Positions 2,853 to 20,945 of a DNA stretch of 39,314 nucleotides are shown here, one piece after another. The stretch comes from Fibrobacter sp. Its GTDB lineage: Bacteria; Fibrobacterota; Fibrobacteria; Fibrobacterales; Fibrobacteraceae. Every line of letters begins with the position of its first letter. Positions within the stretch are counted from its first letter, which is position 1. The notes beneath the pieces are model-generated. The model saw only the letters and a program-made list of their open reading frames with translations, searched no databases and was not told the origin of the DNA. The stretch covers positions 1-39,314 of the forward strand of contig JAISUZ010000037.1 in the NCBI GenBank assembly GCA_031271785.1. Direction: 5' to 3'. A program made the translations under genes and the position numbers.

Positions 2853-2861
2853 GAAAACCAA

Positions 2862-3575: not shown

Positions 3576-3590
3576 AATGCGCGAGACTGT

Positions 3591-3710
3591 GGCAGGAATA
3601 GCGACCGGAATTGCGGAGACGCGGAACGCGGCTCCGTTTTGCCGCATCGGTTCGGTTAGTGGTTTCATACAGCTCTGATGCCGTGCAAAATGCCAGTCCG
3701 GTCCCGGAAT
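3591..3710 (-). repeat. Dispersed mosaic repeat, degenerate copy E
   Basis: On the minus strand this region reads GCTGTATGAAACCACTAACC, then CGGAGCCGCGTTCCGCGTCT, then GGTCGCTATTCCTGCC. The same landmarks occur in the same order at 28916-29058 (copy D). It lies between the convergent pflA and apeR genes, starting about 15 bases after the pflA stop. No clear intrinsic terminator is visible here for either gene. Confidence 0.5.
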
Positions 3711-3751
3711 GAAATGGAGGGAGCCACCCATGAAAATAATTTTAAAACCGC

Positions 3752-4972: not shown

Positions 4973-5697
4973 TAAATCAATCCTCCGTTCACGGAAATTA
5001 CTTGCCTCGTGATATAAGAGGCGGATTCGGACAAAAGAAAAATCACGACCGCGGCCACTTCTTCGGGTTTACCTGCGCGCCCAAGCGGAATGGACGGGAG
5101 AATTTTATCAAGCGGCGCGTCTTTGCTCATTTCGGTTTCGATCAAGCCCGGCGCGACACAATTGACGGTAATTTTCCGGCTAGCCAGTTCAATTGCTAAC
5201 GCCTTTGTCGCGCCGATGATTCCGGCTTTGGATGCGCTGTAATTCACCTGCCCGCGGTTTCCTATAATGCCTGCGACGGAAGCCATGGTGATGATCCGCG
5301 CCGGTTGTTTGGCGCGGCACATGGGCATAACGACCGGATGAAGGCAGTTAAAAAATCCGTTTAAGTTGGTGTCGATCACCTGATCCCAATTTTCATCGGT
5401 GAGCGCAGGGAACGCGCCGTCACGGCAAATTCCCGCATTATTCACTACGCCGTAATAAACGCCGTTTTCCCGTATATCGCGTTCCAATACTTCGCGGCAT
5501 TCTTCGCGGTTGCCGATATCGAACTGAAGCAATCGGATTTTCCCGCCGGCGGAGAGAATTTCTTCGGAAGCTTCTTTCAAAAGAGTTACGTTACGGTGGT
5601 AATGCGCTACGACCGAATAACCTTCTTTCGCGATCGCTTTCACGAGAGCAAGCCCAATACCGCCCGAAGCGCCTGTGATCAATACTTGTTTTTCCAT
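4972..5697 (-). CDS. apeQ: APE 3-oxoacyl-ACP reductase (FabG-like, ApeQ)
   Basis: NADPH-dependent short-chain reductase that reduces the beta-keto group after each PKS extension. It is 241 residues. The cofactor motif TGASGGIG is at 9-16, NNAG at 86-89, and the catalytic residues are N111, S140, Y153 and K157 (YSASK). A good ribosome binding site (AAAGGGAA) overlaps the end of apeP, from which it is separated by one base. It overlaps apeR by one base. All catalytic residues are present, so an active ketoreductase is expected. Confidence 0.9.
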   Translation of the reverse strand: MEKQVLITGASGGIGLALVKAIAKEGYSVVAHYHRNVTLLKEASEEILSAGGKIRLLQFDIGNREECREVLERDIRENGVYYGVVNNAGICRDGAFPALTDENWDQVIDTNLNGFFNCLHPVVMPMCRAKQPARIITMASVAGIIGNRGQVNYSASKAGIIGATKALAIELASRKITVNCVAPGLIETEMSKDAPLDKILPSIPLGRAGKPEEVAAVVIFLLSESASYITRQVISVNGGLI

Positions 5698-5698
5698 A

Positions 5699-6166
5699 TC
5701 ATTCCCTTTCTAAAACTTTATACGAACTAACTTCAACCGTATTTAAAACACCGTGCGCGACTTCTTTGCCGTCCATAAAAATAACGCCTTCAAAAGTCAC
5801 CGCCTGATCCATCCGGAGCGTTTGCCGTACCTGAATTTGTATGCATTTTCCGAGGGGAAACGAATCCACCGAAGCCGTATAACCCGTAACGCTCATAATA
5901 AAACCGACTTGCGGCGCGGTATTTCTTTCCCGATTGTAAATCCCGGAAAGAGCGGAGATACTTTGCGCCATATACTCAAATCCGATCCATACGGGAACGC
6001 CCTGCATTCCGGAATCCAAAAACAGGGTGCCGGGCAAAATATCCACTTCGCTCGTGAGCTCTTTGGCTTCAATACTAAACGCCGCAATGCGGGAAAGGAG
6101 AAACATTTTACCGGAGTGCGGCACCAGTTTTTCCGTTTGTTCTTTTGTATAAATAACTTCGCTCAT
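5699..6166 (-). CDS. apeP: APE hot-dog fold 3-hydroxyacyl-ACP dehydratase (ApeP)
   Basis: FabA/FabZ-like dehydratase of 155 residues that would remove water from the beta-hydroxy intermediate to build the conjugated polyene. The N-terminal LVPHSGKMFLLSRI resembles the LLPHR.P.LL.DRI start of FabZ-type proteins, and GVPVWIGFEYMAQSISAL is the central hot-dog helix. Its ATG overlaps the apeO stop (ATGA). Work on proteobacterial APE enzymes describes two dehydratases, ApeI and ApeP, acting together; the ApeI counterpart here is the C-terminal domain of the fusion protein at 14670-16961. Confidence 0.85.
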   Translation of the reverse strand: MSEVIYTKEQTEKLVPHSGKMFLLSRIAAFSIEAKELTSEVDILPGTLFLDSGMQGVPVWIGFEYMAQSISALSGIYNRERNTAPQVGFIMSVTGYTASVDSFPLGKCIQIQVRQTLRMDQAVTFEGVIFMDGKEVAHGVLNTVEVSSYKVLERE

Positions 6167-7347
6167 GTTCTCTCCATCACAAGACTCACGTTACAGCCGC
6201 CGAAAGCGAATGAATTACTCATGCACCGCGAAACCCGATTTACCGCATGAGGCGCGGGCACTAAATTCAATGACGGCAAAGTCTCGTCACGCACGCCGTC
6301 AAAAAGATGAGGCGGTAGAAATTTTTCGTTGCCGGTTTGCAAAAGAGTCATACCGCAAATCGCAAGTTCCAGCGCGCCGGCAGCACCGAGAGTGTGTCCG
6401 GTCATAGCCTTTGTGGAACTCACCGGAAGCGTTCCGGAAAAAACCGAGGCAACGGCAAGGCTTTCCATAGCGTCGTTTAACTTGGTTCCCGTTCCGTGCA
6501 AATTCAGATAATCGATTTGCGAGGGAGAAAGTTCCGCATCGGAAAGTGCCCCTTGCATGGCAAGTATTGCTCCCGCGCCGTCGGCGCGGGGGGCTGTCAT
6601 GTGGTCGGCGTCGGCGCTTTCGCCGATGCCGATTATTTTCAAAGAAGCGCCGTCCGCCTCTTTCGTGACTAAAAAGAACGCGCCTGCTTCGCCGAGAGTA
6701 ATACCCGAACGGTTTGCGCTAAACGGATTACACGGTTCGGGAGATACCGCCTCAAGCGAAGAAAACCCAAGCATTACCGGAAGCGAGACAATATCGACTC
6801 CGCCGACAATCGCAGCATCGCAAACGCCCGCGTAAATCATATTCCGCGCCGAGGCAAACGCGCTCGCACTGGAAGCGCACGCCGTCGAATGTGTTTGAAT
6901 CACATTGTTAAGTTCAAAATAATCGGCAATGAAACGCGCCGGAAAATCCGCCTGCTGCATTTCCATGGAATAATTTTCCGGGAAACTTCCGGTTTGAGAA
7001 AACGTTTGAAGCGCCGCGAGAGAAGCTTCGGATCCGTTATCGCAAGAACCGAGAAACACGCCGATCCGGTCTTTTCCATAATTTTGAATTGCCGCCTCTA
7101 TTTTCGGACGCATAAATTGCAAAACACTTAAAGAAATCCGGTTCACGCGGTTATCAAAAAACGGATTTTCAACAGGTACATCCGTTACTTCGGACGTTAA
7201 AAGCGCGGCATAACGCGAAAGCTTTCCGAAGATTCGCTCTTGAATGGCGGAGCGATCCCCGGCGAGCAATTTTTTCCAAATCGCATCCTTCCCGGAACCG
7301 AGGGCGCAAACGGCGTTAAAATCCTGAATAAAAAGCGGGCGCGTCAC
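6163..7347 (-). CDS. apeO: APE beta-ketoacyl-ACP synthase (ApeO)
   Basis: Second ketosynthase of the PKS. I place the start at GTG 7345-7347, which forms a GTGA overlap with the apeN stop, giving 394 residues beginning TRPLFIQDFNAVCALGSG. An upstream TTG at 7389 would add 14 residues deep inside apeN and is less likely. The nucleophile is Cys157 (HSTACASSAS), with later histidine motifs LNLHGTGTKLND and AMTGHTLGAAG, so catalysis is expected. Proteobacterial ApeO is described as working with the chain-length-factor-like ApeC, whose counterpart lies at 19549-20139. The next gene overlaps it by four bases (ATGA). Confidence 0.87.
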   Translation of the reverse strand: MTRPLFIQDFNAVCALGSGKDAIWKKLLAGDRSAIQERIFGKLSRYAALLTSEVTDVPVENPFFDNRVNRISLSVLQFMRPKIEAAIQNYGKDRIGVFLGSCDNGSEASLAALQTFSQTGSFPENYSMEMQQADFPARFIADYFELNNVIQTHSTACASSASAFASARNMIYAGVCDAAIVGGVDIVSLPVMLGFSSLEAVSPEPCNPFSANRSGITLGEAGAFFLVTKEADGASLKIIGIGESADADHMTAPRADGAGAILAMQGALSDAELSPSQIDYLNLHGTGTKLNDAMESLAVASVFSGTLPVSSTKAMTGHTLGAAGALELAICGMTLLQTGNEKFLPPHLFDGVRDETLPSLNLVPAPHAVNRVSRCMSNSFAFGGCNVSLVMERT

Positions 7348-7937
7348 TCGCGAACCTCCGAAAGAATACGGTATTCGTAACCGCGCCAAAGATTTTTATA
7401 ATAAAGTTCGCCGGGCGTTTTCCGGATAGTGATAACGGTTTTCTCTCCGCTTTTCAAAAGCCGCGTTTCCGTATTACCCTCCCGATGTACTTCAAAAATA
7501 AAACCGGCGGTTTCCAAATTTTTCTTTAAAGCGCCCGCCCGGTAATAACAAAGCTGAAAATCGGCAATCACATATTCCGGCCGTTGTTTCTCGGTATCTA
7601 AAATACGGCTTGAAAACGTAAGACTGTCTTCGGTGTAAAAAATTTCCGCAAATGTACCGCCGAGCGCATTAAAAACATGAATGCTGATAAGAGAATCGGA
7701 TGCTTTAATCCAAGCCTCCATTTCAAATTCGGAATCGCCGTATTTCCCCTGCAAATGCTGCGCGCCCTCAAAAGGCGTTTCGATTTCGGACGGCGGAAGC
7801 AATGAAAAAAAGTGTTCATCCGTTAAATAAACCGGGTGTTCGTTCACGCGGAGCTGTGACACGGAACGGCAGCCGAACATTCCCCAAACGATGCCGACTG
7901 CAATTAAACTCCAAAAGAAATAATGCCGTATTGCCAT
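7344..7937 (-). CDS. apeN: APE-associated DUF3261-like lipoprotein (ApeN)
   Basis: Exported lipoprotein of 197 residues. A hydrophobic signal (residues 6-20) ends in GMFGC with Cys23 as probable lipidation site, followed by a beta-rich soluble domain. Its size and position directly after the MMPL exporter match the DUF3261 lipoprotein ApeN, which is thought to act with ApeL and ApeM in moving the lipid-like pigment to the outer membrane. It starts 33 bases after the exporter stop, the largest gap in the arm, and overlaps apeO as GTGA. The domain assignment rests on context and general appearance, not on a signature motif. Confidence 0.72.
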   Translation of the reverse strand: MAIRHYFFWSLIAVGIVWGMFGCRSVSQLRVNEHPVYLTDEHFFSLLPPSEIETPFEGAQHLQGKYGDSEFEMEAWIKASDSLISIHVFNALGGTFAEIFYTEDSLTFSSRILDTEKQRPEYVIADFQLCYYRAGALKKNLETAGFIFEVHREGNTETRLLKSGEKTVITIRKTPGELYYKNLWRGYEYRILSEVRE

Positions 7938-7970: not shown

Positions 7971-10325
7971 TTATTCCAGGTCTTTGCCCGGTTCTTCTTG
8001 CTTTTGCGATACGAACGGCGCGAAAAGAAAGCAAAATAAAATCCCTAAAAAGACGGAAAGCCCAAACTGCGATACCGGGGCAAACGAACTGAGCGAAAGG
8101 GCGCCGAAAGAGAGTTCCGTCGTTACCATGGAAAGGAATACCGCAAGCATCGTCACCGCGTAATTTTTCTTTTTTTCCGAGAAAAAGAGAACGTAATCGA
8201 TACCGATGCCGAGCGTGAGGATAATCCCTGCCACCGCAAAGAAGTTAAAAGGACGCCCTAAATAACCGAAAACGGCAATCGTCGTCAAAACCGAAAGCAA
8301 CGGCGTGGCGATAATCAAAAGCGTTTGACGGAGCGCATAAAATTTTAACAGTACGAAGAAAATAAAAACATAAACCGCAAAAATCATCAAAAGCGAAATT
8401 TGAGAATAGCGTGTGAGTTCGTTTCCGATATCCTCTATTTTATCGACAAAATAAACCGAATCGAACCGGCTTGCGAGTTGTTTTAAAGCCGGGCGGTCCT
8501 TTTCCCGAAGCGGAAGTATTACGCTGAAATATTCTTCCCCCACTTTTCCGATCTGCAAATTGGAAACAAGCGCGGAGAGTGTTTCCGGAATTTTATCAAA
8601 AGTCAAAAAACGGGTAGCGGCAAGTTCAAAATCCCGGAGAAACTTCGATTCCGCCGAATCGCTTAACCCGAGAAGTTCAAACTGCCGGGCGGATTCCGGC
8701 AAAAGGCGTTCCCGGACGGTTTCGTAAGAATATGCCTGATGTTTGAGAGACGGGAGAAATTGCGAAAGCGATACATAGCCTTCCAAAATATTTTCCTGCT
8801 GCATGGAATCGAGAGCGATTCGAAATGCTTCTTCTTTTTGCAAAAGTTCTTCCGCCGAATTTCCTTTGACGATAAAGAACCAGCCGGAAGACCCATGATT
8901 TAAAATTTCAGCGGCAAATTTTTCCGATTCCAAAAGCTTCGCGGACATTTTGTATAAAGAGCGAATATCATTTTTAAAATTCACCTGATAAATACCGAAA
9001 GCCAAAACACCCGCAAACAATACAAAAACCCCCGCCCGCACCATTTTAGGAATCGCGCGTACTTTAGCATAACCTTTCATTAAAAAATGCGGAAAGGCGA
9101 GCGGCAATTTCTGTTTTTCCACCTTAGGGAGCGGTAAATACGGAAACGCGAGCTGAATCACAAGAAATGAACTTAAAAGCCCCGCGAGGGAAAAGAACGC
9201 CATCTGTTTCAACAGCAAAAACGGCATTAACACGAGCGCCACATAACTGAGTTGTGTGGTGAAAAAACCGATGCTGACCTGCTTGATAATTTTCTTACGC
9301 ACATCAAAACCGCTCCGGTTGTTTTCCTTATTTTTCCAATGCGTGAAAAAATGAAGCGAGTAATCGATACTGATTCCAATGAGGGTTGTGCCGAAAATAA
9401 AGGTAAAAGTGTGAATTTCTCCGAAAATCAATTTCGTCGCCGAAGCGGCAAATAAAATCGAAGTGATAATCACGGTTACCGTGGATAAAATCGGAATCGG
9501 CGTGCGGAAGACGGATAAAAGAAGGATCACGATGAGAATCATCGAAAGCGTGCTGATAAGAGAAATCTCTTTTTTTGCTTCCGTAGAACTTTCATAAGTA
9601 TGGAAAGGCACCCCGGAGAAAACCGTCCGAACACCTTTACTTTCCAGTTGATCCGCCAAGAGGCGCATTTTCCCGATGATATGATTTTCTTCCGCAATCG
9701 CGAGTACATCATCCGAAAGCGCACCGTCGATAAAGACAAAATAAGATCCTTTATTTTCAAAAACACGGTAACCGTCTTTCAGAGTGAAGGCCATTTTCTG
9801 CAAAGCCGGCGAAGTCAGATAATCGTTAAAAAGATTTTCCGTAAGGAGAAACGGGTCTTGCTCCAAGTTTTCAAGAGATGAAAAGGAAAACGTACCATAT
9901 ACCCGACCAAGGGCTTCGCGCTGTACTTCCTCCGCATTCAGATTTTGAAGCCGCTCTGCTTTTTGAAGCGCATAACGGTAATCGAAAAGGAAGTTTTTGA
10001 AATCGTTGAGAGAAAATTCGGGGACACGGCAATTTATTTTCCCAAGCCCCGCCGATTTTTGAATTTCTCCGCAAAAAGAATCTGCCGAAAGTTTCGCTGT
10101 TTCAAAATTTTCATGCCCGATAAACACAAAAAATTTGGATGAGTTCGCGGAACTCCAGACTTTTTCCGCTTCCGCGATTTCTTTGAGTTCGTGAGATTCC
10201 GGGAGAATGGAGTAAAAATCGGAACTGATTTTCCATGAAGAAGTAAACGCAAATGCGATAACGGTCAAATAAACCAAAACGAAAAGCGCAAGCGCTATGC
10301 CGTTTTTGGTGTATTTACTCGGCAA
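7971..10325 (-). CDS. apeM: MMPL/RND-family exporter (ApeM)
   Basis: Inner-membrane RND/MMPL transporter of 784 residues, predicted to move the aryl polyene lipid out of the inner membrane. It has the two-fold MMPL layout: one N-terminal membrane segment, a large periplasmic domain with FSGVPF, five membrane helices around 260-400, then a second membrane segment, periplasmic domain and helices to the end. Glycine-rich segments typical of the family occur (IGISIDYSLHF, LGIGIDYVLFF). The only plausible start is TTG at 10323-10325, preceded by AGAGG and overlapping the LolA-like gene by 11 bases; no ATG occurs before the first membrane helix. Confidence 0.87.
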   Translation of the reverse strand: MPSKYTKNGIALALFVLVYLTVIAFAFTSSWKISSDFYSILPESHELKEIAEAEKVWSSANSSKFFVFIGHENFETAKLSADSFCGEIQKSAGLGKINCRVPEFSLNDFKNFLFDYRYALQKAERLQNLNAEEVQREALGRVYGTFSFSSLENLEQDPFLLTENLFNDYLTSPALQKMAFTLKDGYRVFENKGSYFVFIDGALSDDVLAIAEENHIIGKMRLLADQLESKGVRTVFSGVPFHTYESSTEAKKEISLISTLSMILIVILLLSVFRTPIPILSTVTVIITSILFAASATKLIFGEIHTFTFIFGTTLIGISIDYSLHFFTHWKNKENNRSGFDVRKKIIKQVSIGFFTTQLSYVALVLMPFLLLKQMAFFSLAGLLSSFLVIQLAFPYLPLPKVEKQKLPLAFPHFLMKGYAKVRAIPKMVRAGVFVLFAGVLAFGIYQVNFKNDIRSLYKMSAKLLESEKFAAEILNHGSSGWFFIVKGNSAEELLQKEEAFRIALDSMQQENILEGYVSLSQFLPSLKHQAYSYETVRERLLPESARQFELLGLSDSAESKFLRDFELAATRFLTFDKIPETLSALVSNLQIGKVGEEYFSVILPLREKDRPALKQLASRFDSVYFVDKIEDIGNELTRYSQISLLMIFAVYVFIFFVLLKFYALRQTLLIIATPLLSVLTTIAVFGYLGRPFNFFAVAGIILTLGIGIDYVLFFSEKKKNYAVTMLAVFLSMVTTELSFGALSLSSFAPVSQFGLSVFLGILFCFLFAPFVSQKQEEPGKDLE

Positions 10326-10995
10326 GGAACGCCTCTTGCTCTTCTTTCGTTAAACGTTCCGGAAATTGGTGACCGGAAAATTGATACACGATTTGATCGC
10401 CGTTGCTTTCTTTCAGAATGCAATCCGCGAGTACGGAATCCACGCGAATATAAATAAAGGCAAATAAATCCCGAAGCGTTTTATCTTTCGGAATCAGCCC
10501 GATATGCGAGCCGGGGAGCACTCCCTTTTTATGAGGAGGCTGTGAAAAAAAATAAATATCGAAACGCCCGTAAAGTTCTGCGGGTTTTCCGGAGAAAACC
10601 GCCTGAATGGTTTTAGCGAATTCGCGGAATACGGCGTTATCCGCCGTATGAATTACCTGATATTTCCCTTGCGGCGTTTTCTGCACCACTTTGGAATCGG
10701 TCACGGCAAGCAGTAACGGAAACGGTTTTTGCGTATCCCACAAAATGCCGTCCTGTTCGGAAATCAAAAAAACGCCTTCCGACTCAAACGTCCGCGAAAG
10801 TTTGGTAATGACTTTCTTTTGTTTGAAATTCCCCTTCACAATCGGGTATTTGGCAAGCTGCAGACAAACTTCTTCAAAAAGGGGTTTATCCTCTTCGTTC
10901 AGCGGCATACGAAAAACCGTGAATTCTTCCGAAGGTTCTTGAGCCGAAAGAATTCCTGCAAGCGTAAAAAGCAGAGGCAGAAAAACTTTAAGCAT
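10315..10995 (-). CDS. apeL: LolA-like outer-membrane lipoprotein carrier (ApeL)
   Basis: Exported 226-residue protein with a Sec signal (residues 1-18, probable cleavage after LSA) and a LolA/LolB-type fold. GNFKQKKVITKLSRTFESEG and the later GILWDTQKPFP are the usual start of LolA-like proteins. In APE loci this protein is the presumed periplasmic carrier for the pigment between the exporter and the outer membrane. It overlaps the thioesterase gene by 8 bases and the exporter gene by 11 bases. Confidence 0.85.
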   Translation of the reverse strand: MLKVFLPLLFTLAGILSAQEPSEEFTVFRMPLNEEDKPLFEEVCLQLAKYPIVKGNFKQKKVITKLSRTFESEGVFLISEQDGILWDTQKPFPLLLAVTDSKVVQKTPQGKYQVIHTADNAVFREFAKTIQAVFSGKPAELYGRFDIYFFSQPPHKKGVLPGSHIGLIPKDKTLRDLFAFIYIRVDSVLADCILKESNGDQIVYQFSGHQFPERLTKEEQEAFLAE

Positions 10996-11428
10996 CCGCT
11001 TCTCCGTTCTTCAAATAGTATTCCACTTTATCCAAAAACACTTTCGGCGACACAAATTGGGATTCCATGGTTTTCAAATCCACCGCCATCTGCATGCTTT
11101 CCGCTTTGGTTAAAACCATTCCCGTTTCAAGGTCTTCAATCTTATAAGCGAGTTTTAAGCAATTTTCATATTCCACAATAGTTGCCGTAATCCGCACCTT
11201 TTGTAAAAACCGGAGAGGGCGAATATACTTCACATGAATATCCACCACCGGAAAAGCAAAACCGCTTTTCTCCATGGCGGCGTAATCATAACGGAGCTTG
11301 GAAAGCAATGCACAACGCGCCCGTTCCATGTATTTCACATAATTGCCGTGCCAAACGATATTCATGGAATCCACATCGTAAAATTCCACTTGAAAATCAA
11401 CGGAGGCGCTGACGGTTTTATTTTCCAT
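10988..11428 (-). CDS. apeK: YbgC/FadM-like acyl thioesterase (ApeK)
   Basis: Hot-dog fold acyl-CoA/ACP thioesterase. I choose the ATG at 11426-11428, which forms a one-base TAATG overlap with the ammonia lyase stop and gives 146 residues; an upstream frame extension adds four residues. The 4-hydroxybenzoyl-CoA thioesterase-type motif YDVDSMNIVWHGNYVKYMER is intact, with Asp20 as probable catalytic residue. It may release or edit PKS intermediates. Position between the lyase and the LolA-like gene agrees with apeK. Confidence 0.87.
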   Translation of the reverse strand: MENKTVSASVDFQVEFYDVDSMNIVWHGNYVKYMERARCALLSKLRYDYAAMEKSGFAFPVVDIHVKYIRPLRFLQKVRITATIVEYENCLKLAYKIEDLETGMVLTKAESMQMAVDLKTMESQFVSPKVFLDKVEYYLKNGEADA

Positions 11429-12954
11429 TAAACGCTCCAACGTTTGAGGCGAATCAGTTCTACCGTTTCGCGGAGTTCATGTTCCAGCGGGCGGTCTTCC
11501 GCTAAAAACTCAAAAGAATCGCACAACTGTTCGTATGTTTTTTCCACTCCTTTCAGTTTTTCCCGGGAAATTTCTTTTTTGAGAACCCGGAGACGGAGAG
11601 CCTGAGCGGCGGCGAGCAAACAGGCGGCAGCCACTTGTTCCGTGAGCTCGAGAACACGAATACAATCGCGAGCCGCGATAGTTCCCATACTGACTTTATC
11701 CTGATTATGGCACTCGGTTGAGCGGGAGAACACGCTCATGGGCATTGTATTTTTGAGCGCCTCCGCCGTCCAGGCCGAAGCCGCAATCTGCACGGCTTTA
11801 AACCCGTGATGATAGGAATACTTGCCTTCCGAGCCCGAAAGATTCGGAGGGAGACCGCGGTTAAATTTCACATCGACCATAACGGCAAGCTGACGGTCCA
11901 AAAGATCGGCGAGGTTTGCCACCACATTTTTCAAAGAATCCATAGCAAAAGCAATATGACCGCCGTAAAAATGACCGCCGTGGAAAACCGAGCGCAGTTC
12001 CGGATCAATAATCGGGTTATCGTTCGCGCTGTTCATCTCGACTTCAATCAACTGCCGGAAGAGTTTCTCCGCATCGTAAAAAACACCGATGACATGAGGC
12101 GCGCAGCGAATGGAATACGGATCCTGAATTTTTTCGGGAACAATGTTTTCTTCCGAATCCGAAGCAAGTACTTCACGGATTTTTGCCGCCGCCAGATTTT
12201 GCCCCGGATGCGGCTTCACCTCAAAAAGGCGTTCGTAAAAATGGTAAGCATTTCCTTTTAACGCCATCGAATTCATAGCCGTGACGCGGCACGCGACATC
12301 CGCCAAATAAGAAGCCTTGGAAAACGCAAGGCACGCTACGGCATTCATTACCGCCGTTCCGTTCATGATCGCAATCGCTTCTTTAGGGCGGAAACGGTAA
12401 GGGCGCAATTCCAATTCCTTTAAAACATCAAGCGCCAAACGGCGTTTTCCTTGATACAGCACTTCGCGTTCGCCGATCAAAACGGCAGCGAGGTAAGAGA
12501 GCGGCGTTAAATCTCCGCTAGCCCCCACGGAACCTTCTTCCGGAATCAGCGGCAAGATATCATGTTCGAGTAAAAAAGCAATCCGCCGAAGAAGTTCCAT
12601 ACTCACGCCGGAAAATCCTTGAGAGAGCGTATTTAAACGCACCGCGATAATGGCGCGGGTGGTTTCCGGAGTGAAATGATTTCCCATGCCGCAACCGTGA
12701 TAACGCGTGAGGTTCACAGGTAAATCGTAATAATGTTCGGGAGGCACCACCTGCGTACAGGAATCGCCGTAACCGGTAGTCACGCCGTAAATGCCGCCGT
12801 GTTCCTGTAAAGCTTCATCTAAAAAAGTAGCGCCGCTCTCAATTTTACGGATAAACGAAGGCTCATCACATAACGTTACGGCACATTCTCTCCGGGCAAT
12901 CGCTTCGATCATTTCAATCGTTAAAAAATCTTTTCCAATAACCACTTGTTTCAT
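11428..12954 (-). CDS. MIO-type aromatic amino acid ammonia lyase (HAL/TAL family)
   Basis: Lyase of 508 residues from the ATG at 12952-12954, which overlaps the acyltransferase stop as ATGA and has AGGAAA upstream. The MIO prosthetic group triad Ala-Ser-Gly is at 145-147 (GSVGASGDLTPLS). The catalytic tyrosine is in IYGVTTGYGDS and the SANDNPIID motif is present. It would deaminate tyrosine or phenylalanine (possibly histidine) to the aryl acrylate used as APE starter. The substrate-selectivity pair is Tyr-His (residues 85-86, in TRYHGCG), unlike the classical Ser-His of histidine lyases, His-Leu of bacterial tyrosine lyases or Phe-Leu of phenylalanine lyases, so the substrate cannot be read off directly. 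No hut genes are nearby, arguing against histidine catabolism. Confidence 0.9.
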   Translation of the reverse strand: MKQVVIGKDFLTIEMIEAIARRECAVTLCDEPSFIRKIESGATFLDEALQEHGGIYGVTTGYGDSCTQVVPPEHYYDLPVNLTRYHGCGMGNHFTPETTRAIIAVRLNTLSQGFSGVSMELLRRIAFLLEHDILPLIPEEGSVGASGDLTPLSYLAAVLIGEREVLYQGKRRLALDVLKELELRPYRFRPKEAIAIMNGTAVMNAVACLAFSKASYLADVACRVTAMNSMALKGNAYHFYERLFEVKPHPGQNLAAAKIREVLASDSEENIVPEKIQDPYSIRCAPHVIGVFYDAEKLFRQLIEVEMNSANDNPIIDPELRSVFHGGHFYGGHIAFAMDSLKNVVANLADLLDRQLAVMVDVKFNRGLPPNLSGSEGKYSYHHGFKAVQIAASAWTAEALKNTMPMSVFSRSTECHNQDKVSMGTIAARDCIRVLELTEQVAAACLLAAAQALRLRVLKKEISREKLKGVEKTYEQLCDSFEFLAEDRPLEHELRETVELIRLKRWSV

Positions 12955-13919
12955 ACGGTTTCCTTTTCTTCCAAAGCAGGATGCTCCCAAAAATTGTAAA
13001 AATTATACCACTGATAAGGGTGTTTCACGCAAAGCGTTTCCAAATGAGCCACATATTCTTTCATGAGAGCCGCAAGCATTTCCGGACGGTTTTTCCGCGG
13101 TCCATTCAAAGAAGTTTCCGCCTTAAAAATATGCATTTCATAAGGCGCACGAAAGTCCAAATCGCGTTTCCGGACGGCAAAGGCAAAGTAAACCGGAGCC
13201 TGCACGAGAGCCGCGAGCGTAAAAGCGCCCTGCGGGAAATAAGCGGTTTTTCCTAAAAAAGAAACTTCGGAACTGCGTGCCCGTGTTTTGGCCGCCGTGC
13301 GGTCGCCGGCAATTACCACCACATTTCCGTTTTTAACTTGTTCGGTAATTGAAATAACCGTGTCCGGGCCGATCGAATTGGCATCGATGATTTTTTCAAT
13401 AAGCCCGGGATTCACCTGCCGGAGCATTGTGTTAAAACGCACCGTACCCGAAAAATCCACCACCGGCAACACCTCGAAAGGGCGCGCCGCGTGAGTATTA
13501 TTAAACCCGGTAAAAGAGCGGAGCATTTCCATATTCCCCAAATGAGAACAAATTAAGAATGCGCCGTGTCCCTCATTGAGTTCCGCCACCAGTTTTTGAA
13601 TATCGTCGTTTTGAGTTTCGATGGAAGCGAGCGGTACATTGTTCCCCCAGCCCGCAATTTTTTCAAACATGGAAAACGAGAACGATAAAAAATGTAAATA
13701 CACCGAAAACACAGTCGCCCGTTTTCCGGCATGAATTAAAAAATTTCTCGACAACACGCGTTCATCGCGAGCGCCGAGAAAAAAGAAAAACGTCACGACA
13801 GCAATCACCGGAAACCTGACAAAATAAGGCGCGGCGCCGGCAATCCAAAACATGAAACGGAACTGCCAATCCCCTTTTCCGAATTCCTGTTTTTCCGACC
13901 AGTGCTTATCTTTTCCCAT
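12951..13919 (-). CDS. LpxL/HtrB-like acyltransferase (C-terminal half of ApeJ)
   Basis: Membrane-associated acyltransferase of 322 residues from the ATG at 13917-13919. An upstream in-frame start at 13955 would add 12 residues inside the glycosyltransferase gene. The LpxL/HtrB motif HX4E appears as H126-LGNM-E131, and a hydrophobic segment lies at about 28-50. In many APE loci a glycosyltransferase and this acyltransferase form one ApeJ polypeptide; here they are separate frames overlapping by 14 bases. It may add a fatty acyl chain to the pigment's lipid anchor. It overlaps the lyase gene as ATGA. Confidence 0.82.
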   Translation of the reverse strand: MGKDKHWSEKQEFGKGDWQFRFMFWIAGAAPYFVRFPVIAVVTFFFFLGARDERVLSRNFLIHAGKRATVFSVYLHFLSFSFSMFEKIAGWGNNVPLASIETQNDDIQKLVAELNEGHGAFLICSHLGNMEMLRSFTGFNNTHAARPFEVLPVVDFSGTVRFNTMLRQVNPGLIEKIIDANSIGPDTVISITEQVKNGNVVVIAGDRTAAKTRARSSEVSFLGKTAYFPQGAFTLAALVQAPVYFAFAVRKRDLDFRAPYEMHIFKAETSLNGPRKNRPEMLAALMKEYVAHLETLCVKHPYQWYNFYNFWEHPALEEKETV

Positions 13920-14673
13920 GGTTCTTGATTTTGCGGTAAAGGAGAAGCGGCGCACGAACGAGCATCCCGAGAAACAGAATCGCGTGAAGCCTTGAAATAC
14001 GCAGATTATCGCGGATCATGCGGAAATGCGAAATACCGTCTTCGGGGTAAGAAACTTTTACCGGATAAAAATGCATTTTCACGTTTCCCCAATAAAGGCG
14101 CACTAAAATTTCAATATCGAATCCCATGCGGTAATCCGAAAAGCCGCGTTTTAACAGCTTGCTTGTGGACTTCAAAGGATAAACGCGAAAACCGCACATC
14201 GCATCGGGAATATCGCAGGAAAGCGTTTCGAGAGCTACCCAAAAATTCGTAATTTTCCGACCGTGTTCACGGCTCTTGGGAACGCTTTTATCATATTGCG
14301 GTATGCCGCCGATCAAAGCCCGCGGATGTTTCTCCGCTGCTTTTAAGAAAAACGGAATCGCAGATAAATCGTGCTGACAATCCGCATCAATTTGGAGCGC
14401 GTGAGAAAACCCGAGTTTGTTCGCCACGAGAAACCCGGCCGAAACCGCGCCGCCCTTCCCCCGGTTTTCAGGGAGCGTCACGAGGTTAATTTCTGGAAAC
14501 GCACGCATAAGGCGCAGAATATCCGCTTTTGTTTCTTCATCGCTGCCGTCGTCCACAAGAACTACAGGGAGCGCATTCTCCCGCAAAACTTCCATGAGTG
14601 AAAAAAGCGTTCGCCCATGATTATAACAAGGGATCACGGCACAAGCATCAACGGTAAAAGCATCTTTATTCAT
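13906..14673 (-). CDS. apeJ: Family 2 glycosyltransferase (N-terminal half of ApeJ)
   Basis: Cytoplasmic GT-A fold glycosyltransferase of 255 residues. Nucleotide-sugar motifs are CAVIPCYNHGRTL near the N-terminus, VDDGSDE (40-46), RGKGGAVSAGF (71-81) and the metal-binding DAD (96-98). The C-terminus resembles polyprenyl-phosphate glycosyltransferases of the DPG-synthase type but lacks strong membrane helices. It probably adds a sugar to the aryl polyene or its lipid anchor. ATGA overlap with the upstream fusion gene and 14-base overlap with the acyltransferase suggest tightly coupled translation. Confidence 0.85.
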   Translation of the reverse strand: MNKDAFTVDACAVIPCYNHGRTLFSLMEVLRENALPVVLVDDGSDEETKADILRLMRAFPEINLVTLPENRGKGGAVSAGFLVANKLGFSHALQIDADCQHDLSAIPFFLKAAEKHPRALIGGIPQYDKSVPKSREHGRKITNFWVALETLSCDIPDAMCGFRVYPLKSTSKLLKRGFSDYRMGFDIEILVRLYWGNVKMHFYPVKVSYPEDGISHFRMIRDNLRISRLHAILFLGMLVRAPLLLYRKIKNHGKR

Positions 14674-16961
14674 TCAAGAACCTCCATAAAAATCACTCCC
14701 GAAGAAAACAAGGCGCGACTCTCGGGACAAAGATAATTAAAGGTGATTTTCCCTTTCTCGCGGCTGTAAGAAGCCTCCAGACAAATGGGAGTATCCGGAA
14801 GAACCGGTTTTACAAACTTCACGCGGGAAATTTTGGAAAAACGAAGCGAACTCTGCAAATATTCGTGAGAAAAACGAATGGCGAGGTCAATTTGAACCAC
14901 GGCCGGCAACAAATGAAACTCGTTAAAATGACCGTCGTAATAGTCGCTGGATTTCGGCACGGTCAAAAGCACTTCCATTTTATCTTCACATACCCGAACA
15001 TCCCGGACAATCACATTTTGAGATTCTTTCACAAACAACTGTTCTATTTCCTTCCGTTTGATTTTCCCTTGGGTATCTCCGGGGAGACTCTCCGAATAGC
15101 GCCACTTTTTAGGGAGTACCGTTCTCTCCAAGTAACCCGAAAGATAGTTTTTAAAAAAATCGTTTCTCGCTTTTAGGGAACATTTTCCCAATTGTTCGCA
15201 CCCCGCCCGGTTCAGCACGACAGCCGCCCCCAAATACTCGCGGAACCCGGTAAGCGCCACCACGCAAACATCCTGCACAAGTCCGGTGGCGCGGATCCTC
15301 GACTCCACTTCGGTGAGCGAAATCCGTTTTTCCTCGATTTTTACAATCGAATCGATTCTGCCTTTCAAAATAAAAGAGCCGTCTTCATTGAATTCCACCA
15401 AATCGCCCGTGGTGAACCCCGCCGGGTCATTCAAGTAAGGCGAATATACTTTCAGACATCCGTTCTCTGTAAGTTCCATGCGGTTCACGCGGAAAGGTGT
15501 CCAGGCAAGCGACTTTTCCGCCACACGGTAAGCGATACCGCCGGTTTCCGTACTTCCGTAAATCTCCGCCGGGGAAGTTCCGGTAATGCGTTTGGCTTCC
15601 TGCGCCGCTTCTACCGGGAGCACGCCCCCCGATGAGAACAGAAGCGGCGGAATCTCAAAAATGTGATTCTCGAGTTTCGATTCGGCAAGCCGCTTGAGAA
15701 ACGCAGGGCTCGAAACCAAAACCAAAGGCTCGCGGCTGAAATGCTTTAAAGACTCGGGAATTTCAATGCGCTCGCTCCGGAACGGAACGCCGAGAGAAGC
15801 CGGGAGAAGCGCGGAAAATAAAAGTCCGTAAATATGATGGTGATTCACCGTTCCCACAAAACGCCGGGAAAGACAGGCTTCGCCCCAGAGGAATGAAAGT
15901 TCGGCGCCTTCCGCCTCAAACTGGAATAACTTTTTATGAACGGCTTTCGGCGCGCCGGTGGTACCCGAAGTATATAAGAATAAATCCGAATCTTTGGAAA
16001 CCGATACAAAGTCAACCGTTCCGGAACTGTTTTTCACGCATTCTGGAATTGAAAACGAATCCGCAATTTCCTGATCCGTAAGAATTCCCGTTTCCGCCTC
16101 TCGAATTTCCCGGAGAAAATCCGGAGCGCGGTTCGCCGTGAGGTATAATTTTTTACCTGTTTGGAGTACCGCCGTAAACGCGACTAAAAACCGGTAAACA
16201 TTTTCGGCATGAAGGATCCACCCGGAATAAGGCAATGAATTTATCTTCGCCCGAAGTGCTGCCGTATCGCGCACAAAATCGCCCCATGTCCGGTAACGTT
16301 TTTCTTCCCATTGATTTTCAAAGCATAAAATTTTTTCATCCGGATAAAGCCGGCGGTGCCATGCCGATAAAGGAGTGTAATTCGATTTCGGATATTTCTT
16401 TCGTACCTGTACCCGAACCGCATACTCAATTAAAAAAAGCAAGCCGATCAGAATGTAAGAAATCAACCCGTTGTAAAGCGACCAAATCCATTCGGAGCCG
16501 GCAAAAACGGTCGCCCAGGAAACCGAGCCGTTAAAGACAAAAAACAGGCACCAAACCAGCGTAACCTTAAAACAGTATTTTTCTACCGCAGAAACTGACG
16601 GAGATGTCGCAAGCGTTTTATCCTGCAAGAGCGCAAACCGAAAAACGAGCGACGGCGGGCGAAACAAAGTGGAACCGAAAACCCCAAGCAGCACCAGGTT
16701 GACAAGCACCGGATAAATTTTGAGAGTCGTTTCGCTGTTCGTGACCCAAACGAGAGCGACAAGCCCCAAAAGCCCGGCGAATAAAAACAGCGTTTTGCGG
16801 TTTTTTCCGCGAAGAAATGCGGAAAAATGAAACGCCGCCATGATAACCAAAAGGAGTGAAAGCACGCGCGGCTGTATCTTAAAATACAGCCCGGCAAAAA
16901 TTAAAACAGGGTAGCAAACCGAAAAGATTGTAAAAACAACCTTCCCTAAAACAGATTTCAT
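14670..16961 (-). CDS. apeH: Three-domain fusion: ApeG-like membrane part + ApeH AMP ligase + ApeI dehydratase
   Basis: A 763-residue protein that appears to join three APE functions. Residues 1-185 hold several membrane helices (about 8-27, 31-50, 57-74, 84-98, 131-153, 160-183), matching the small membrane protein ApeG. Residues about 200-640 are an adenylate-forming ligase with the P-loop-like LYTSGTTGAPKAVHK (329-343), YGSTETGG (468-475), TTGD (517-520), GRIDSIVKIEEKRIS (534-548) and a C-terminal GKIKRKE with probable catalytic Lys633. Residues about 645-763 are a hot-dog dehydratase with DGHFNEFHLLPAVVQ around His678. It would activate the aryl starter for ACP loading and supply the ApeI partner of ApeP. 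It overlaps the neighbouring genes by ATGA on both sides. Confidence 0.88.
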   Translation of the reverse strand: MKSVLGKVVFTIFSVCYPVLIFAGLYFKIQPRVLSLLLVIMAAFHFSAFLRGKNRKTLFLFAGLLGLVALVWVTNSETTLKIYPVLVNLVLLGVFGSTLFRPPSLVFRFALLQDKTLATSPSVSAVEKYCFKVTLVWCLFFVFNGSVSWATVFAGSEWIWSLYNGLISYILIGLLFLIEYAVRVQVRKKYPKSNYTPLSAWHRRLYPDEKILCFENQWEEKRYRTWGDFVRDTAALRAKINSLPYSGWILHAENVYRFLVAFTAVLQTGKKLYLTANRAPDFLREIREAETGILTDQEIADSFSIPECVKNSSGTVDFVSVSKDSDLFLYTSGTTGAPKAVHKKLFQFEAEGAELSFLWGEACLSRRFVGTVNHHHIYGLLFSALLPASLGVPFRSERIEIPESLKHFSREPLVLVSSPAFLKRLAESKLENHIFEIPPLLFSSGGVLPVEAAQEAKRITGTSPAEIYGSTETGGIAYRVAEKSLAWTPFRVNRMELTENGCLKVYSPYLNDPAGFTTGDLVEFNEDGSFILKGRIDSIVKIEEKRISLTEVESRIRATGLVQDVCVVALTGFREYLGAAVVLNRAGCEQLGKCSLKARNDFFKNYLSGYLERTVLPKKWRYSESLPGDTQGKIKRKEIEQLFVKESQNVIVRDVRVCEDKMEVLLTVPKSSDYYDGHFNEFHLLPAVVQIDLAIRFSHEYLQSSLRFSKISRVKFVKPVLPDTPICLEASYSREKGKITFNYLCPESRALFSSGVIFMEVLE

Positions 16962-17215
16962 TTGCCGGAAGAATCCTGCATCAAGTTGTCAATCGCGTTC
17001 ACCACGTCTTGCATGGTGCGTACTTGCTTGAAAACTTCCGGATCAATGTTTCTCGGGAGCATGGACTTTAATTTCACAATCAGATCCACCGCGTCGATGC
17101 TATCCAAATTGAGATCTTCATACAAACGCGCCTCGGGAGTCACCAAAGCCTCATCAATATCAAATTCATCCACTAATGTGTTTTTCAATTTTTCAAAAAT
17201 TTCATTTTTGTCCAT
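16958..17215 (-). CDS. apeF: Acyl carrier protein (ApeF)
   Basis: ACP of 85 residues with the phosphopantetheine site LNLDSIDAVDL (Ser39). A strong ribosome binding site AAGGAG overlaps the stop of the preceding ACP, three bases away. One of two adjacent ACPs, as in apeE-apeF; one probably carries the aryl starter and growing chain. Which ACP has which role cannot be decided from sequence. Confidence 0.9.
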   Translation of the reverse strand: MDKNEIFEKLKNTLVDEFDIDEALVTPEARLYEDLNLDSIDAVDLIVKLKSMLPRNIDPEVFKQVRTMQDVVNAIDNLMQDSSGK

Positions 17216-17218
17216 ATT

Positions 17219-17482
17219 TTACTCCTTCGTATTCGCCCGGATATAAGCGGCCAGTGCATTGACCGAGGCAAAGTGTTTGCGCGTTTCGTCGTTTACGGTG
17301 GCAAAGCTCACATTAAAATTCTCTTTAATTGCAATCCCGAGTTCCAAAGCATCAATGGAATCCAATCCAAGTCCGTCACCAAAAAGCGGAGCATCGTCCA
17401 CGATATCTTCAGGTATTATCTCTTCCAAATCAAGCGCTCGAATCAAAACTTCTTTGATTCGCAAATTCAAATCATCCATCAT
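17219..17482 (-). CDS. apeE: Acyl carrier protein (ApeE)
   Basis: ACP of 86-87 residues, first gene of the leftward arm. The attachment site is LGLDSIDALELG with Ser42. Two consecutive ATG codons (17482 and 17479) are possible starts, preceded by TTGGAGTT. It differs from the second ACP in helix II and the C-terminus, suggesting distinct partners. Its start faces the divergent rightward arm across 105 bases. Confidence 0.88.
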   Translation of the reverse strand: MMDDLNLRIKEVLIRALDLEEIIPEDIVDDAPLFGDGLGLDSIDALELGIAIKENFNVSFATVNDETRKHFASVNALAAYIRANTKE

Positions 17483-17587: not shown

Positions 17588-18457
17588 ATGAAGGTTCGTT
17601 ACCTGATTTTAGCCATTGTCCTCTTATTCGGAAGCATTTACGCAGGACCCAAACCCCTTGCTATTCCGGATCATTTTGCCAAACCGGCAAAAAAACAGAC
17701 CGCGCTCCCCGGAAATTTTGAAATTATTATTGGGGAAAAGGTTCGTGCCCCCATTGATCAAAAGCGGTTTTTCTACTCCATCCTTCTCGCCGCGCAAAAC
17801 CTCGGGCTCCGGAGTCAAGTCACGTCTTCCAATACGATTGTTGTTAATTCTACAAACACCGCCGTCCGGGTTTCTTTCGGAGAAGACGAATACTGGTATG
17901 AATATGTGGACAGCCGGAATCTGAATGCAAACCCCAAAGAAAACCGGATGCCGGACAACTATATTCAATTCCTCGATACCCTCGAAACAAGCATTCAGGG
18001 AGTTTATACGTCGCCGGAATCCGCAACCATTCCGCAGCCGACACTCTCGCAACTAAAAGAACAACAAACCGCCGCCCCGGCCGCTTTTTCTCCGCCGCAA
18101 AGAAAAACGCAGGCGATGGCGCATAATTTTGAAGTCATTTCCGGAAAATTTCTCACGCCGCCTCTCAACGAAGAAAGTATGCGCTACGCCATTATCAAGG
18201 CCGCCCATACCCTTGGTTACCATCCGCTCCCGTCGGATAACCCGAACTCTATTGTGCTTTACAAAGCGAACGGCAGCAAGTGGTCGGTGAAAATCAAAGT
18301 CGTTTTCTGGAAAGGCGATTACTGGTTTGAATATGTGGACAGTAACCGGCTTAAAGCCGATCCGTTCCGCAACCGGATCCACCGGAATTACTATGAATGG
18401 ATCCGGGATTTGGATTCAAAAATTACCTCCTATTATAAATCACACTATTCCCGCTAA
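17588..18457 (+). CDS. Exported protein with two tandem homologous domains, APE-associated, function unknown
   Basis: 289 residues with a Sec signal peptide (MKVRYLILAIVLLFGSIYAG, cleaved near residue 19). The mature part is two copies of one domain of about 95-110 residues (about 42-140 and 174-285) joined by a Pro/Gln-rich linker. Each copy begins NFE(I/V)I(I/S)G, continues with ALLHAA-type helix positions (ILLAAQNLGL versus IIKAAHTLGY), and ends W(Y/F)EYVDS.(N/R)L(N/K)A(N/D)P..NR. I do not recognise the family. Its position before the methyltransferase corresponds to the place of the small exported ApeA in other loci, so a duplicated ApeA-like role is an inference only. Confidence 0.8.
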   Translation: MKVRYLILAIVLLFGSIYAGPKPLAIPDHFAKPAKKQTALPGNFEIIIGEKVRAPIDQKRFFYSILLAAQNLGLRSQVTSSNTIVVNSTNTAVRVSFGEDEYWYEYVDSRNLNANPKENRMPDNYIQFLDTLETSIQGVYTSPESATIPQPTLSQLKEQQTAAPAAFSPPQRKTQAMAHNFEVISGKFLTPPLNEESMRYAIIKAAHTLGYHPLPSDNPNSIVLYKANGSKWSVKIKVVFWKGDYWFEYVDSNRLKADPFRNRIHRNYYEWIRDLDSKITSYYKSHYSR

Positions 18458-18463
18458 GCCTTT

Positions 18464-19552
18464 ATGTTTCCTTTTTACACCCAAGACAAAATCCGCGCGA
18501 TTGATGCGAAGTTTGAAGCACAGCGCATCGCTTTCGCACCTCTTTCGTTTCAAGCCGCCATCGCGCTCCGCGACCTCGGTATTCTCGCAGAAGTGAGCGC
18601 AAACAAAGACGGCGTCACCACGTCTGCCCTCGCCGAAAAGCTTTCGCTCTCCCTCTACGGTGTGGGCGTTCTCGCGGAAATGGGACTCGGCATGGGAGTC
18701 TTAAAACTCGCGCCCGGTTCTTCCGAAGAAGATTTGAAATACACGCTCGGAAAAACAGGTTACTTTCTCTTAAAAGACGAAATGACTCTCGTAAACATGA
18801 ACTTTTCTCAAGACGTGTGTTATGAAGGCGCGAAAGCCTTAACGGAATCGGTGAAAAACGGAAAGCCCGAAGGATTAAAATTTTTCGGAACATGGAAAAC
18901 GGTGTATGAGGCCCTTTCGCAACTCCCGCCGCCCGTTCAAAAAAGCTGGTTCGAGTTCGATCATTTTTATTCCGACCTCGCGTTTCCCGAAGCCCTGCCT
19001 GTGGTTTTCCGGAAAAAATATAACACCCTTTTTGATATCGGCGGTAACACCGCCAAATGGTCGATCGCCTGCTGCAAGTACGACTCTCAGGTGAAAGTCA
19101 CCATTATCGATTTACCCGGACAAACTGCCGTCGCCGAAAAAAACATTGCCGAAGCAGGCTTTTCCGACCGGATTTCCACTCACGCCACAAACGTTCTCGA
19201 CAAGGAATCAAAATTTCCGCAAGGCGCGGAAGCCGTTTGGATGAGTCAATTTCTGGATTGTTTTTCGCTTGAAGAAATCACACGGATCGTCTCCAAAGTC
19301 CGCGAAAGCATTACGAATGAAACCGATGTTTTTGTTCTCGAACCGCTTTGGGATATGCAGCGTTTTGAAGCCGCGTCTTATTCTCTGCAAGCCACTTCGC
19401 TTTACTTTACCTGTATCGCCAACGGCAACTCGAAAATGTACCGTTTTAAAGAACTCACGAACGCGATTGAAGCAGGCGGTTTTGAACTGAAAGAAGCAAA
19501 CCATAATCTCGGCATCAACAGTTATTCCCTCTTGCGTTTTCAGAAAAAATGA
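18464..19552 (+). CDS. apeB: SAM-dependent O-methyltransferase (ApeB)
   Basis: 362-residue small-molecule methyltransferase of the plant O-MT/hydroxyneurosporene type: an N-terminal winged-helix dimerisation domain (about 1-110), then a Rossmann domain with motif I LFDIGGNTAKWS (189-200). The acidic adenosine-binding residue falls in VTIIDLPGQ. It would methylate a phenolic hydroxyl of the aryl head group. It starts six bases after the duplicated-domain gene without an obvious Shine-Dalgarno and overlaps the next gene as ATGA. Confidence 0.85.
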   Translation: MFPFYTQDKIRAIDAKFEAQRIAFAPLSFQAAIALRDLGILAEVSANKDGVTTSALAEKLSLSLYGVGVLAEMGLGMGVLKLAPGSSEEDLKYTLGKTGYFLLKDEMTLVNMNFSQDVCYEGAKALTESVKNGKPEGLKFFGTWKTVYEALSQLPPPVQKSWFEFDHFYSDLAFPEALPVVFRKKYNTLFDIGGNTAKWSIACCKYDSQVKVTIIDLPGQTAVAEKNIAEAGFSDRISTHATNVLDKESKFPQGAEAVWMSQFLDCFSLEEITRIVSKVRESITNETDVFVLEPLWDMQRFEAASYSLQATSLYFTCIANGNSKMYRFKELTNAIEAGGFELKEANHNLGINSYSLLRFQKK

Positions 19553-20139
19553 CAACCGATATTTTTATTAACGCCCGGTGTACCTGGAGCCCTTCCGCAG
19601 AAAGTAACGCGCCGGCACTCCCGTGGGTACCCGTGTTATTCAAACGCCGCCTCAGCACTCTTTCCCGCATGGTGATTCACGCGGTTCACGCGGTTTCGGA
19701 CAACCGCCCGCCCGTAAAAATCACGTTTTCTTCCGTTTACGGAGAAGTTTCGCAGCAATGGAAAATCGCTAAAAAGATTATCGAAACCGGAGAAGTTTCC
19801 CCGGCTCATTTTAGTTTATCCGTCTTCAACACGCCGGCAGCGCTTTCCACCATCTTAGAAAAGAATACCACCGGTTATGCCGCCGTATTTTCAGGGGCAC
19901 AAGCTTTTGAAACCGGACTTCAAGACGCCATCGCCGATCTCGAAACCTCCGGAGAATCCGAACGCATTTATGTTTACGCCGACGAAATACTCCCGGAAGA
20001 TTATCAGAAGCTGACAAAATCCGAAACCCCTTCCTTTGTTCTCGCTCTCCGGCTTTCTAAAACCAAATCACCCGAAAGTATTCCCTGCCCGCGTCAAAAA
20101 ATGCCGGCGCTTTCTTTTTTAAAGAGTATCCTTCTTTGA
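19549..20139 (+). CDS. apeC: Short beta-ketoacyl synthase N-terminal-like protein (ApeC, chain-length-factor-like)
   Basis: 196 residues, about half a ketosynthase, with no Cys-His-His triad. The stretch KITFSSVYGEVSQQWKIAKK followed by HFSLSVFNTPAALSTI is characteristic of the ketoacyl-synthase-like proteins found in APE loci. In Xenorhabdus the ApeC equivalent is described as a chain-length-factor-like partner of a true ketosynthase; that role is assumed here. ATGA overlap with the methyltransferase and TTGA overlap with the next gene. Confidence 0.8.
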   Translation: MTTDIFINARCTWSPSAESNAPALPWVPVLFKRRLSTLSRMVIHAVHAVSDNRPPVKITFSSVYGEVSQQWKIAKKIIETGEVSPAHFSLSVFNTPAALSTILEKNTTGYAAVFSGAQAFETGLQDAIADLETSGESERIYVYADEILPEDYQKLTKSETPSFVLALRLSKTKSPESIPCPRQKMPALSFLKSILL

Positions 20140-20945
20140 AAAAACTAACAGTTAAAATTCTTTATTATTACCGGATTTTCGGCAAGCTGATTTGTTTTTT
20201 TATTTTCGGCGTCGGGAGTTTTTTTCTCGCTTCAATCTTTTTTCCGGTTATCATTGCGCTTACGCTTTTATCCCCGCGGCTTTTTCAAAAAACAGCGCGG
20301 CGTACCGTTTCTTTTACATTCTCTATTTTTATCAAAATGATGATTCTGCTCCGCCTCGTGACATTCAAAGTACACCACCGCGAACGTTTAAACGATATCC
20401 GGGCCAAGATTATTATTGCCAATCACCCATCGCTTCTCGATGTGGTGATGCTCATTTCCCTGATTCCGAATGCCGACTGTCTCGTAAAGTCTTCCCTCGG
20501 CGGAGCCAATATTTTGCGCGGGATTGTGCGCCGGCTTTATATTCCGAACTCTCTGAATTTTCAAGACGTGATTGAGGGCTGCATTCATTCTCTGAATCAG
20601 GGAAACTGCTTTATTATTTTCCCGGAAGGAACGCGTACGCGCCCCGGCAAACCGTTTGATCTGAAAAAAGGCGCGGCACGCATTGCACTTGCCGCCGAAA
20701 AAGATATTATCCCGATTTACTTCGGCGGTAATGAAAAAATCGGGTTACGGAAATTCGATAAACTGCTTTCGTTCCACCCAACGGAACGCTATCATTATAT
20801 TTTGTCCGTACTCGAACCGGTTTCTATTGCGGCTTATGAAGATATTCCCGCTCACAAAGCCGCCGCACTCCTCACCGACCAATTTGAAGAAATCTTTACC
20901 CGCGAACGGGAAAAGGAACGCGCTCAAAGCAAAAATGCGGAATAA
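20136..20945 (+). CDS. apeD: PlsC-type 1-acyl-glycerol-phosphate acyltransferase-like protein (ApeD)
   Basis: 269-residue membrane acyltransferase. The start is TTG at 20136-20138, forming a TTGA overlap with apeC; no ATG fits. A long hydrophobic segment lies at about 18-47. The PlsC motifs are intact: ANHPSLLD with His97 and Asp102, and FPEGTRTRPG (161-170). In APE loci this enzyme is thought to attach an acyl chain or help build the lipid anchor. Last gene of the rightward arm, followed by a bidirectional terminator. Confidence 0.87.
   Translation: MKKLTVKILYYYRIFGKLICFFIFGVGSFFLASIFFPVIIALTLLSPRLFQKTARRTVSFTFSIFIKMMILLRLVTFKVHHRERLNDIRAKIIIANHPSLLDVVMLISLIPNADCLVKSSLGGANILRGIVRRLYIPNSLNFQDVIEGCIHSLNQGNCFIIFPEGTRTRPGKPFDLKKGAARIALAAEKDIIPIYFGGNEKIGLRKFDKLLSFHPTERYHYILSVLEPVSIAAYEDIPAHKAAALLTDQFEEIFTREREKERAQSKNAE

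Follow-up and report, generated by a model that had tools for sequence, protein, structure and literature searches.

The window, by which we mean the whole stretch of 39,314 nucleotides of Fibrobacter sp. DNA analysed here, carries a full aryl-polyene (APE, flexirubin-like) cluster as judged from its gene content. It encodes two acyl carrier proteins (ACPs), ApeG, ApeH, ApeI, ApeP, a ketoreductase (KR), ketosynthases plus a chain length factor (CLF), acyltransferases, a LolA-like carrier, an MMPL exporter and a DUF3261 protein, and the product is predicted from these genes. According to earlier descriptions, APE clusters form the most widespread family of bacterial biosynthetic gene clusters. 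In the window ApeG, ApeH and ApeI are parts of one open reading frame on the minus strand. The genome from which the window derives encodes 29 Fib_succ_major domains, which agrees, indirectly, with a place in the Fibrobacterota. The features of the locus are the following:

3752-4972, minus: ketosynthase in the ApeR position (PF00109/PF02801)
4972-5697, minus: ketoreductase, ApeQ (PF13561)
5699-6166, minus: ApeP, dehydratase partner of the ApeI domain (PF22817, E 2.3e-10; Glu present, no GHF His)
6163-7389, minus: ketosynthase in the ApeO position (PF00109/PF02801)
7344-7937, minus: DUF3261 LolB-like protein, ApeN (PF11659)
7971-10325, minus: MMPL/RND exporter, ApeM (PF03176)
10315-10995, minus: LolA-like carrier, ApeL (PF03548)
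10988-11440, minus: thioesterase, ApeK (PF13279)
11428-12990, minus: aromatic amino acid ammonia lyase that probably supplies the aryl acid starter (PF00221, E 2.7e-155; in the same position in Acinetobacter baumannii)
12951-13955, minus: LpxL-type acyltransferase, corresponding to the C-terminal half of ApeJ, a separate gene (PF03279)
13906-14673, minus: glycosyltransferase family 2 (GT2), corresponding to the N-terminal half of E. coli ApeJ, a separate gene (PF00535; 4-bp ATGA overlap with the stop of the fusion)
14670-16961, minus: ApeG-ApeH-ApeI fusion open reading frame, 763 aa, ATG at 16961, stop codon included
16386-16961, minus: ApeG domain of the fusion, residues 1-192, six predicted membrane helices (E. 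coli ApeG homology, AlphaFold, positive-inside count)
15018-16373, minus: ApeH-type adenylate-forming ligase domain of the fusion, residues ~197-648 (PF00501, E. coli ApeH homology, motifs A3/A5/A7/A8/A10)
14673-14996, minus: ApeI-type hot-dog half-dehydratase domain of the fusion, residues 656-763 (PF22818, E. coli ApeI homology, His678 in GHF)
16958-17215, minus: acyl carrier protein in the ApeF position (PF00550 / NF003757; 4-bp ATGA overlap with the start of the fusion)
17219-17482, minus: acyl carrier protein in the ApeE position (PF00550 / NF006617)
18464-19552, plus: FlxJ-like methyltransferase in the ApeB position, in a divergent operon (NF053543, 463 bits, below its cut-off of 560)
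19549-20139, plus: ketosynthase-like chain length factor in the ApeC position (PF13723)
20136-20945, plus: 1-acylglycerol-phosphate-type acyltransferase in the ApeD position (PF01553)

The order of these genes is collinear with E. coli apeE-R except for the split apeJ, the added lyase and the divergent methyltransferase/CLF/acyltransferase operon. In E. coli CFT073 (apeA-R, c1186-c1204) the succession ACP-ACP-ApeG-ApeH-ApeI-ApeJ and onward is the same, but ApeG, ApeH and ApeI are encoded by three genes whose ends overlap, GT2 and acyltransferase are fused in a single ApeJ, there is no lyase and all genes lie on one strand. A. baumannii (CP035931) resembles the window in that GT2 and acyltransferase are encoded by separate genes and an aromatic amino acid lyase is present. 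Between the divergent ape operons of the window, at 17588-18457, lies a gene for a secreted-looking protein of 289 aa that consists of two similar halves and has no Pfam match.

Three domains in one frame

No internal stop was found in the 763 residues of the minus-strand frame at 14670-16961. A Pfam search of the protein placed the AMP-binding family PF00501 over its cut-off at residues 324-479 (E 2.8e-14) and the ApeI-like family PF22818 over its cut-off at residues 670-743 (E 1.1e-8, or 5.2e-10 with the C-terminal piece alone); the N-terminal 184 residues had no family match in Pfam or NCBIfam. When compared pairwise with proteins of E. coli CFT073 (translations from the RefSeq record), all three parts were matched, the N-terminal one with ApeG (41% over 113 aa, E 2e-21), the middle with ApeH (33% over 430 aa, E 5e-62) and the C-terminal one with ApeI (31% over 103 aa, E 2e-17). 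The first of these is identified as ApeG by this homology together with its position between the ACPs and ApeH.

Residues ~197-648 have the adenylate-forming fold and the motifs of an ApeH ligase (A3 at 330, A5 at 468, A7 at 518, A8 at 534), including the A10 lysine (Lys633, with GKIK at 632). The ApeI-like dehydratase is characterized, besides PF22818, by the histidine of the GHF motif at 677 and by an ApeP-type partner encoded in the cluster. Among the fusions examined, A3, A5 and A8 are kept in 39/39 and the ApeI GHF in 38/39. AlphaFold gave a confident multi-helix domain at residues 1-190 (pLDDT 90.7 when folded alone) and the strand/helix order of a hot-dog fold at 651-760, with pLDDT mostly 87-98. 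This structural evidence comes from the ApeG, C-terminal ligase and ApeI parts of the models; residues 193-391, where MAFFT had misaligned ApeHI rows onto ApeG, were left out. What the earlier note had read from the letters alone is borne out by these results, namely a single uninterrupted frame with a multi-helix ApeG-like domain in residues 1-185, a complete adenylate-forming ligase and a hot-dog dehydratase in residues 645-763, and so is the presence of ApeP as its partner. The single frame recurs in 55 genomes of the window's family, one of them a single contig, and an assembly or frame artefact is therefore ruled out. The ApeG-ApeH-ApeI polypeptide is a genuine fusion of three recognisable domains with their motifs kept.

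Distribution and history of the fusion

Part of this arrangement has been described before. In A. baumannii the C-terminus of ApeH carries a fused ApeI whose partner is ApeP (PMC8041823), and the window likewise joins ligase and half-dehydratase in a single polypeptide, with ApeP as the partner. The difference lies upstream, where the ApeG of A. baumannii is a separate gene 9 bp from ApeHI, in the same phase and with a stop codon between, whereas in the window it is fused. The earlier note had assumed that each of the three has a gene of its own in those proteobacterial APE loci that have been characterised; this holds for E. coli but not for A. baumannii, and its claim of novelty was to that extent wrong. 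The ApeH-ApeI fusion is already known and is common in beta- and gammaproteobacteria and Myxococcota; the novel step is the joining of ApeG to ApeHI, and only the ApeG joint is unusual.

A genome scan of Pseudomonadota and Myxococcota found ApeH and ApeI fused, with ApeG as the adjacent gene upstream, in 80/80 loci, a set that is biased towards the ApeHI form because the query was an ApeHI protein. The 29 new loci examined from a sample of 398 Pseudomonadota genomes had both arrangements, three separate genes and ApeG followed by ApeHI, and ApeG was fused in 0/29. A candidate ApeG-ApeH fusion in the Pseudomonadota genome G399 (open frame 685) was ruled out, as stop codons separate the genes. 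Altogether, 109 loci from Pseudomonadota and typical Myxococcota were examined, and none has the three-way fusion. Within the window's phylum (168 genomes), a survey for the same fusion recovered it in one frame in the 55 genomes already mentioned, which belong to five genera of a single family, and elsewhere in the phylum (G057, G048, G050, G026) ApeG is a separate gene.

The fusion is nevertheless not confined to that family, since three small genomes of another phylum, grouped with Myxococcota (G600, G669, G705), also have it. In the tree their fusions form the sister group of those of the family (support 100/99), and in G600 the divergent layout of the cluster is the same as that of the window. 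The tree favours a single fusion in a common ancestor and two later losses, and a transfer of the fusion between the two phyla is likely. One loss is that of genus g7, where a shortened ApeG lacking the N-terminal helices is once more encoded by its own gene, with an overlap of ATGA. The other concerns a second copy in G096 (L205, 6690-10163, plus), where ApeH-ApeI retains no more of ApeG than a remnant of its tail; the full fusion is present in G096 as well. As genus g7 split ApeG off and the second copy of G096 lost it, the covalent link to ApeG must be dispensable.

Some other ApeG-related genes were seen along the way. The two-gene cassette of G096 on L205 combines ApeH-ApeI with an aromatic amino acid lyase and lies away from APE clusters, flanked by uvrA and a gene for a glycosyl hydrolase of family 8. 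G129 of genus g7 has an ApeG-like gene that stands alone, with no other ape gene near it (L208, 5834-6643, plus), and this may be a binning artefact. In three Myxococcota genomes a PF01522 polysaccharide deacetylase domain stands in frame N-terminal to ApeG (L257, 1-2499, plus, in G759; L258, 3610-6531, plus, in G707; L262, 5946-7439, minus, in G673). This is possibly another ApeG fusion, with a Met near the joint that leaves room for a separate start.

The three sister genomes display a further peculiarity. In L259 (G669, 1394-3775, plus), L260 (G705, 922-3270, minus) and L261 (G600, 4364-6904, minus) the N-terminus of ApeG, comprising two helices, is in a different frame from the remainder of ApeG-ApeH-ApeI. 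The frame change falls in all three on an exact run of ten A (A10), in the cytoplasmic loop that joins helix 2 to helix 3. The sequence upstream of the run evolves as coding, with 5/9/15, 15/13/22 and 14/11/28 differences at codon positions 1/2/3. Systematic homopolymer errors are unlikely, and an assembly error of this kind is a less likely source of the break, because two of the three genomes have seven other A10 runs across which the frames stay open. Judging from the sequence, transcript slippage, a programmed -1 frameshift or on/off switching (phase variation) are possible explanations. The corresponding region of the window has no ten-A run. An in-frame A10 run lies in the region of the ApeG helix 2-3 loop in G048 (L068, 668-1351, plus), a genome that belongs to the same phylum as the window but is distant from it.

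The nature of ApeG

ApeG has been annotated as 'COG4648 - pyrophosphatase', and for E. coli it was proposed to power export together with ApeM (PMC8253772). An alignment of 15 ApeG sequences gives as invariant residues P84, F95, L99, A110, T134, W137, F140, F141, N144, W160, E179 and R183, hydrophobic or aromatic for the most part and including a single Glu and a single Arg, and no phosphohydrolase motif was found among them. A fold search of the PDB with the ApeG model returned no match at E below 1 (best E 1.9), and the ApeG profile found nothing significant among the sequences of solved structures. At the level of sequence and fold, then, ApeG has neither the phosphohydrolase fold nor the motif that go with the pyrophosphatase label.

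A different relationship is suggested by profile comparison. Against the YciB/IspA profiles hhalign gave ApeG a probability of 95.7% with a score of 60.7, compared with a score of 12.1 for a reversed profile and at most 34.7 for 30 block-shuffled ones (highest decoy probability, 51.5%). The likeness extends over 139 columns, including a W..FF...N stretch, at ~15% identity, and the YciB genes compared lie outside APE clusters. The family model of YciB/IspA, PF04279, is matched weakly by 17/36 ApeG relatives; one ApeG in an APE cluster is over its cut-off, the ApeG domain of the window itself has no match to it, and one Pseudoalteromonas ApeG is named 'septation protein IspZ' in RefSeq. YciB is described in PMC9487459 as acting with DcrB in membrane fluidity. 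By this resemblance of sequence profiles ApeG would be a remote homologue of the YciB/IspA membrane family and a candidate member of it. Given this homology, the PF04279 matches, the lack of a fold match and the lack of a phosphohydrolase motif, we favour a reading of ApeG as a YciB-like membrane protein that partners ApeH over one as a pyrophosphatase driving export.

The competing view would make ApeG an energy-supplying (pyrophosphatase- or ATPase-like) part of the exporter, and would regard its fusion to ApeHI as a neutral outcome that arose by accident from the order of the genes. It has on its side the published label and the proposal of export powered with ApeM (PMC8253772), as well as the fact that ApeG adjoins ApeH everywhere, so that a lost stop codon could fuse them. 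We consider it improbable, as the invariant residues, the absence of a PDB fold match, the remote homology to YciB instead and the persistence of the fused state through deep divergence all speak against it. Tentatively, and with the odds somewhat against so specific a statement, the partnership of ApeG with ApeH might be carried further. ApeG would be a YciB-family scaffold for the aryl:ACP ligase, APE synthesis would start on a membrane complex, and in the sister lineage the amount of full-length ApeG-ApeH-ApeI would be governed by slippage or on/off switching at the A10 run in apeG.

A probable membrane-held ligase and half-dehydratase

Our preferred reading, to which we give a probability of roughly 0.78, is that the genuine APE-cluster fusion serves, through its ApeG domain, to keep both the ligase and the half-dehydratase ApeI at the inner membrane. 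In this view the six helices of the ApeG domain would lie in that membrane, its C-terminus would face the cytoplasm, and the ligase would be anchored there; the distribution of positive charges favours this orientation (positive-inside count), with the ligase on the cytoplasmic side. The membrane tethering proposed in the earlier note is consistent with such a topology and plausible. The ligase would adenylate an aryl acid, probably of the cinnamate type supplied by the adjoining ammonia lyase, and load it on an ACP. A Xenorhabdus enzyme of the ApeH type is described, as cited in PMC8253772, as loading the ACP directly, without a CoA ester. The ApeI domain, with the separately made ApeP, would then dehydrate each elongation intermediate, His being contributed by ApeI and Glu by ApeP. 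ApeI and ApeP form a heterodimer with a single composite site, and the A. baumannii ApeH-ApeI fusion with ApeP acts as a dual ligase and dehydratase (PMC8041823). The sequences of the window fit a composite site, the GHF His being present in the ApeI domain and ApeP having the Glu and no GHF His.

How complete the tether is depends on whether ApeHI is made only as part of the fusion. That the fused frame is translated while functional ApeHI is also produced separately, through an internal start or proteolysis, which would make the tether only partial, is suggested by Met codons at the ApeG-ApeH joint in relatives and by the natural HI-only versions elsewhere, but we hold it very improbable, since the stretch from Met41 to Met495 of the window protein contains no further Met, which leaves a separate ApeHI without an ATG start there, and since across the family the final helix of ApeG runs into the ligase with about zero linker residues at the joint.

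Returning to the proposed membrane-held fusion, anchoring of the ligase and ApeI by ApeG would keep starter loading and half of the dehydratase where the product is lipid-attached and exported, and a kinetic or spatial benefit may follow from it. The natural covalent link between ApeG and the ligase offers a direct clue that the role of ApeG is to act at the membrane together with ApeH, not to power export, and the homology to YciB provides a testable alternative to the pyrophosphatase label.
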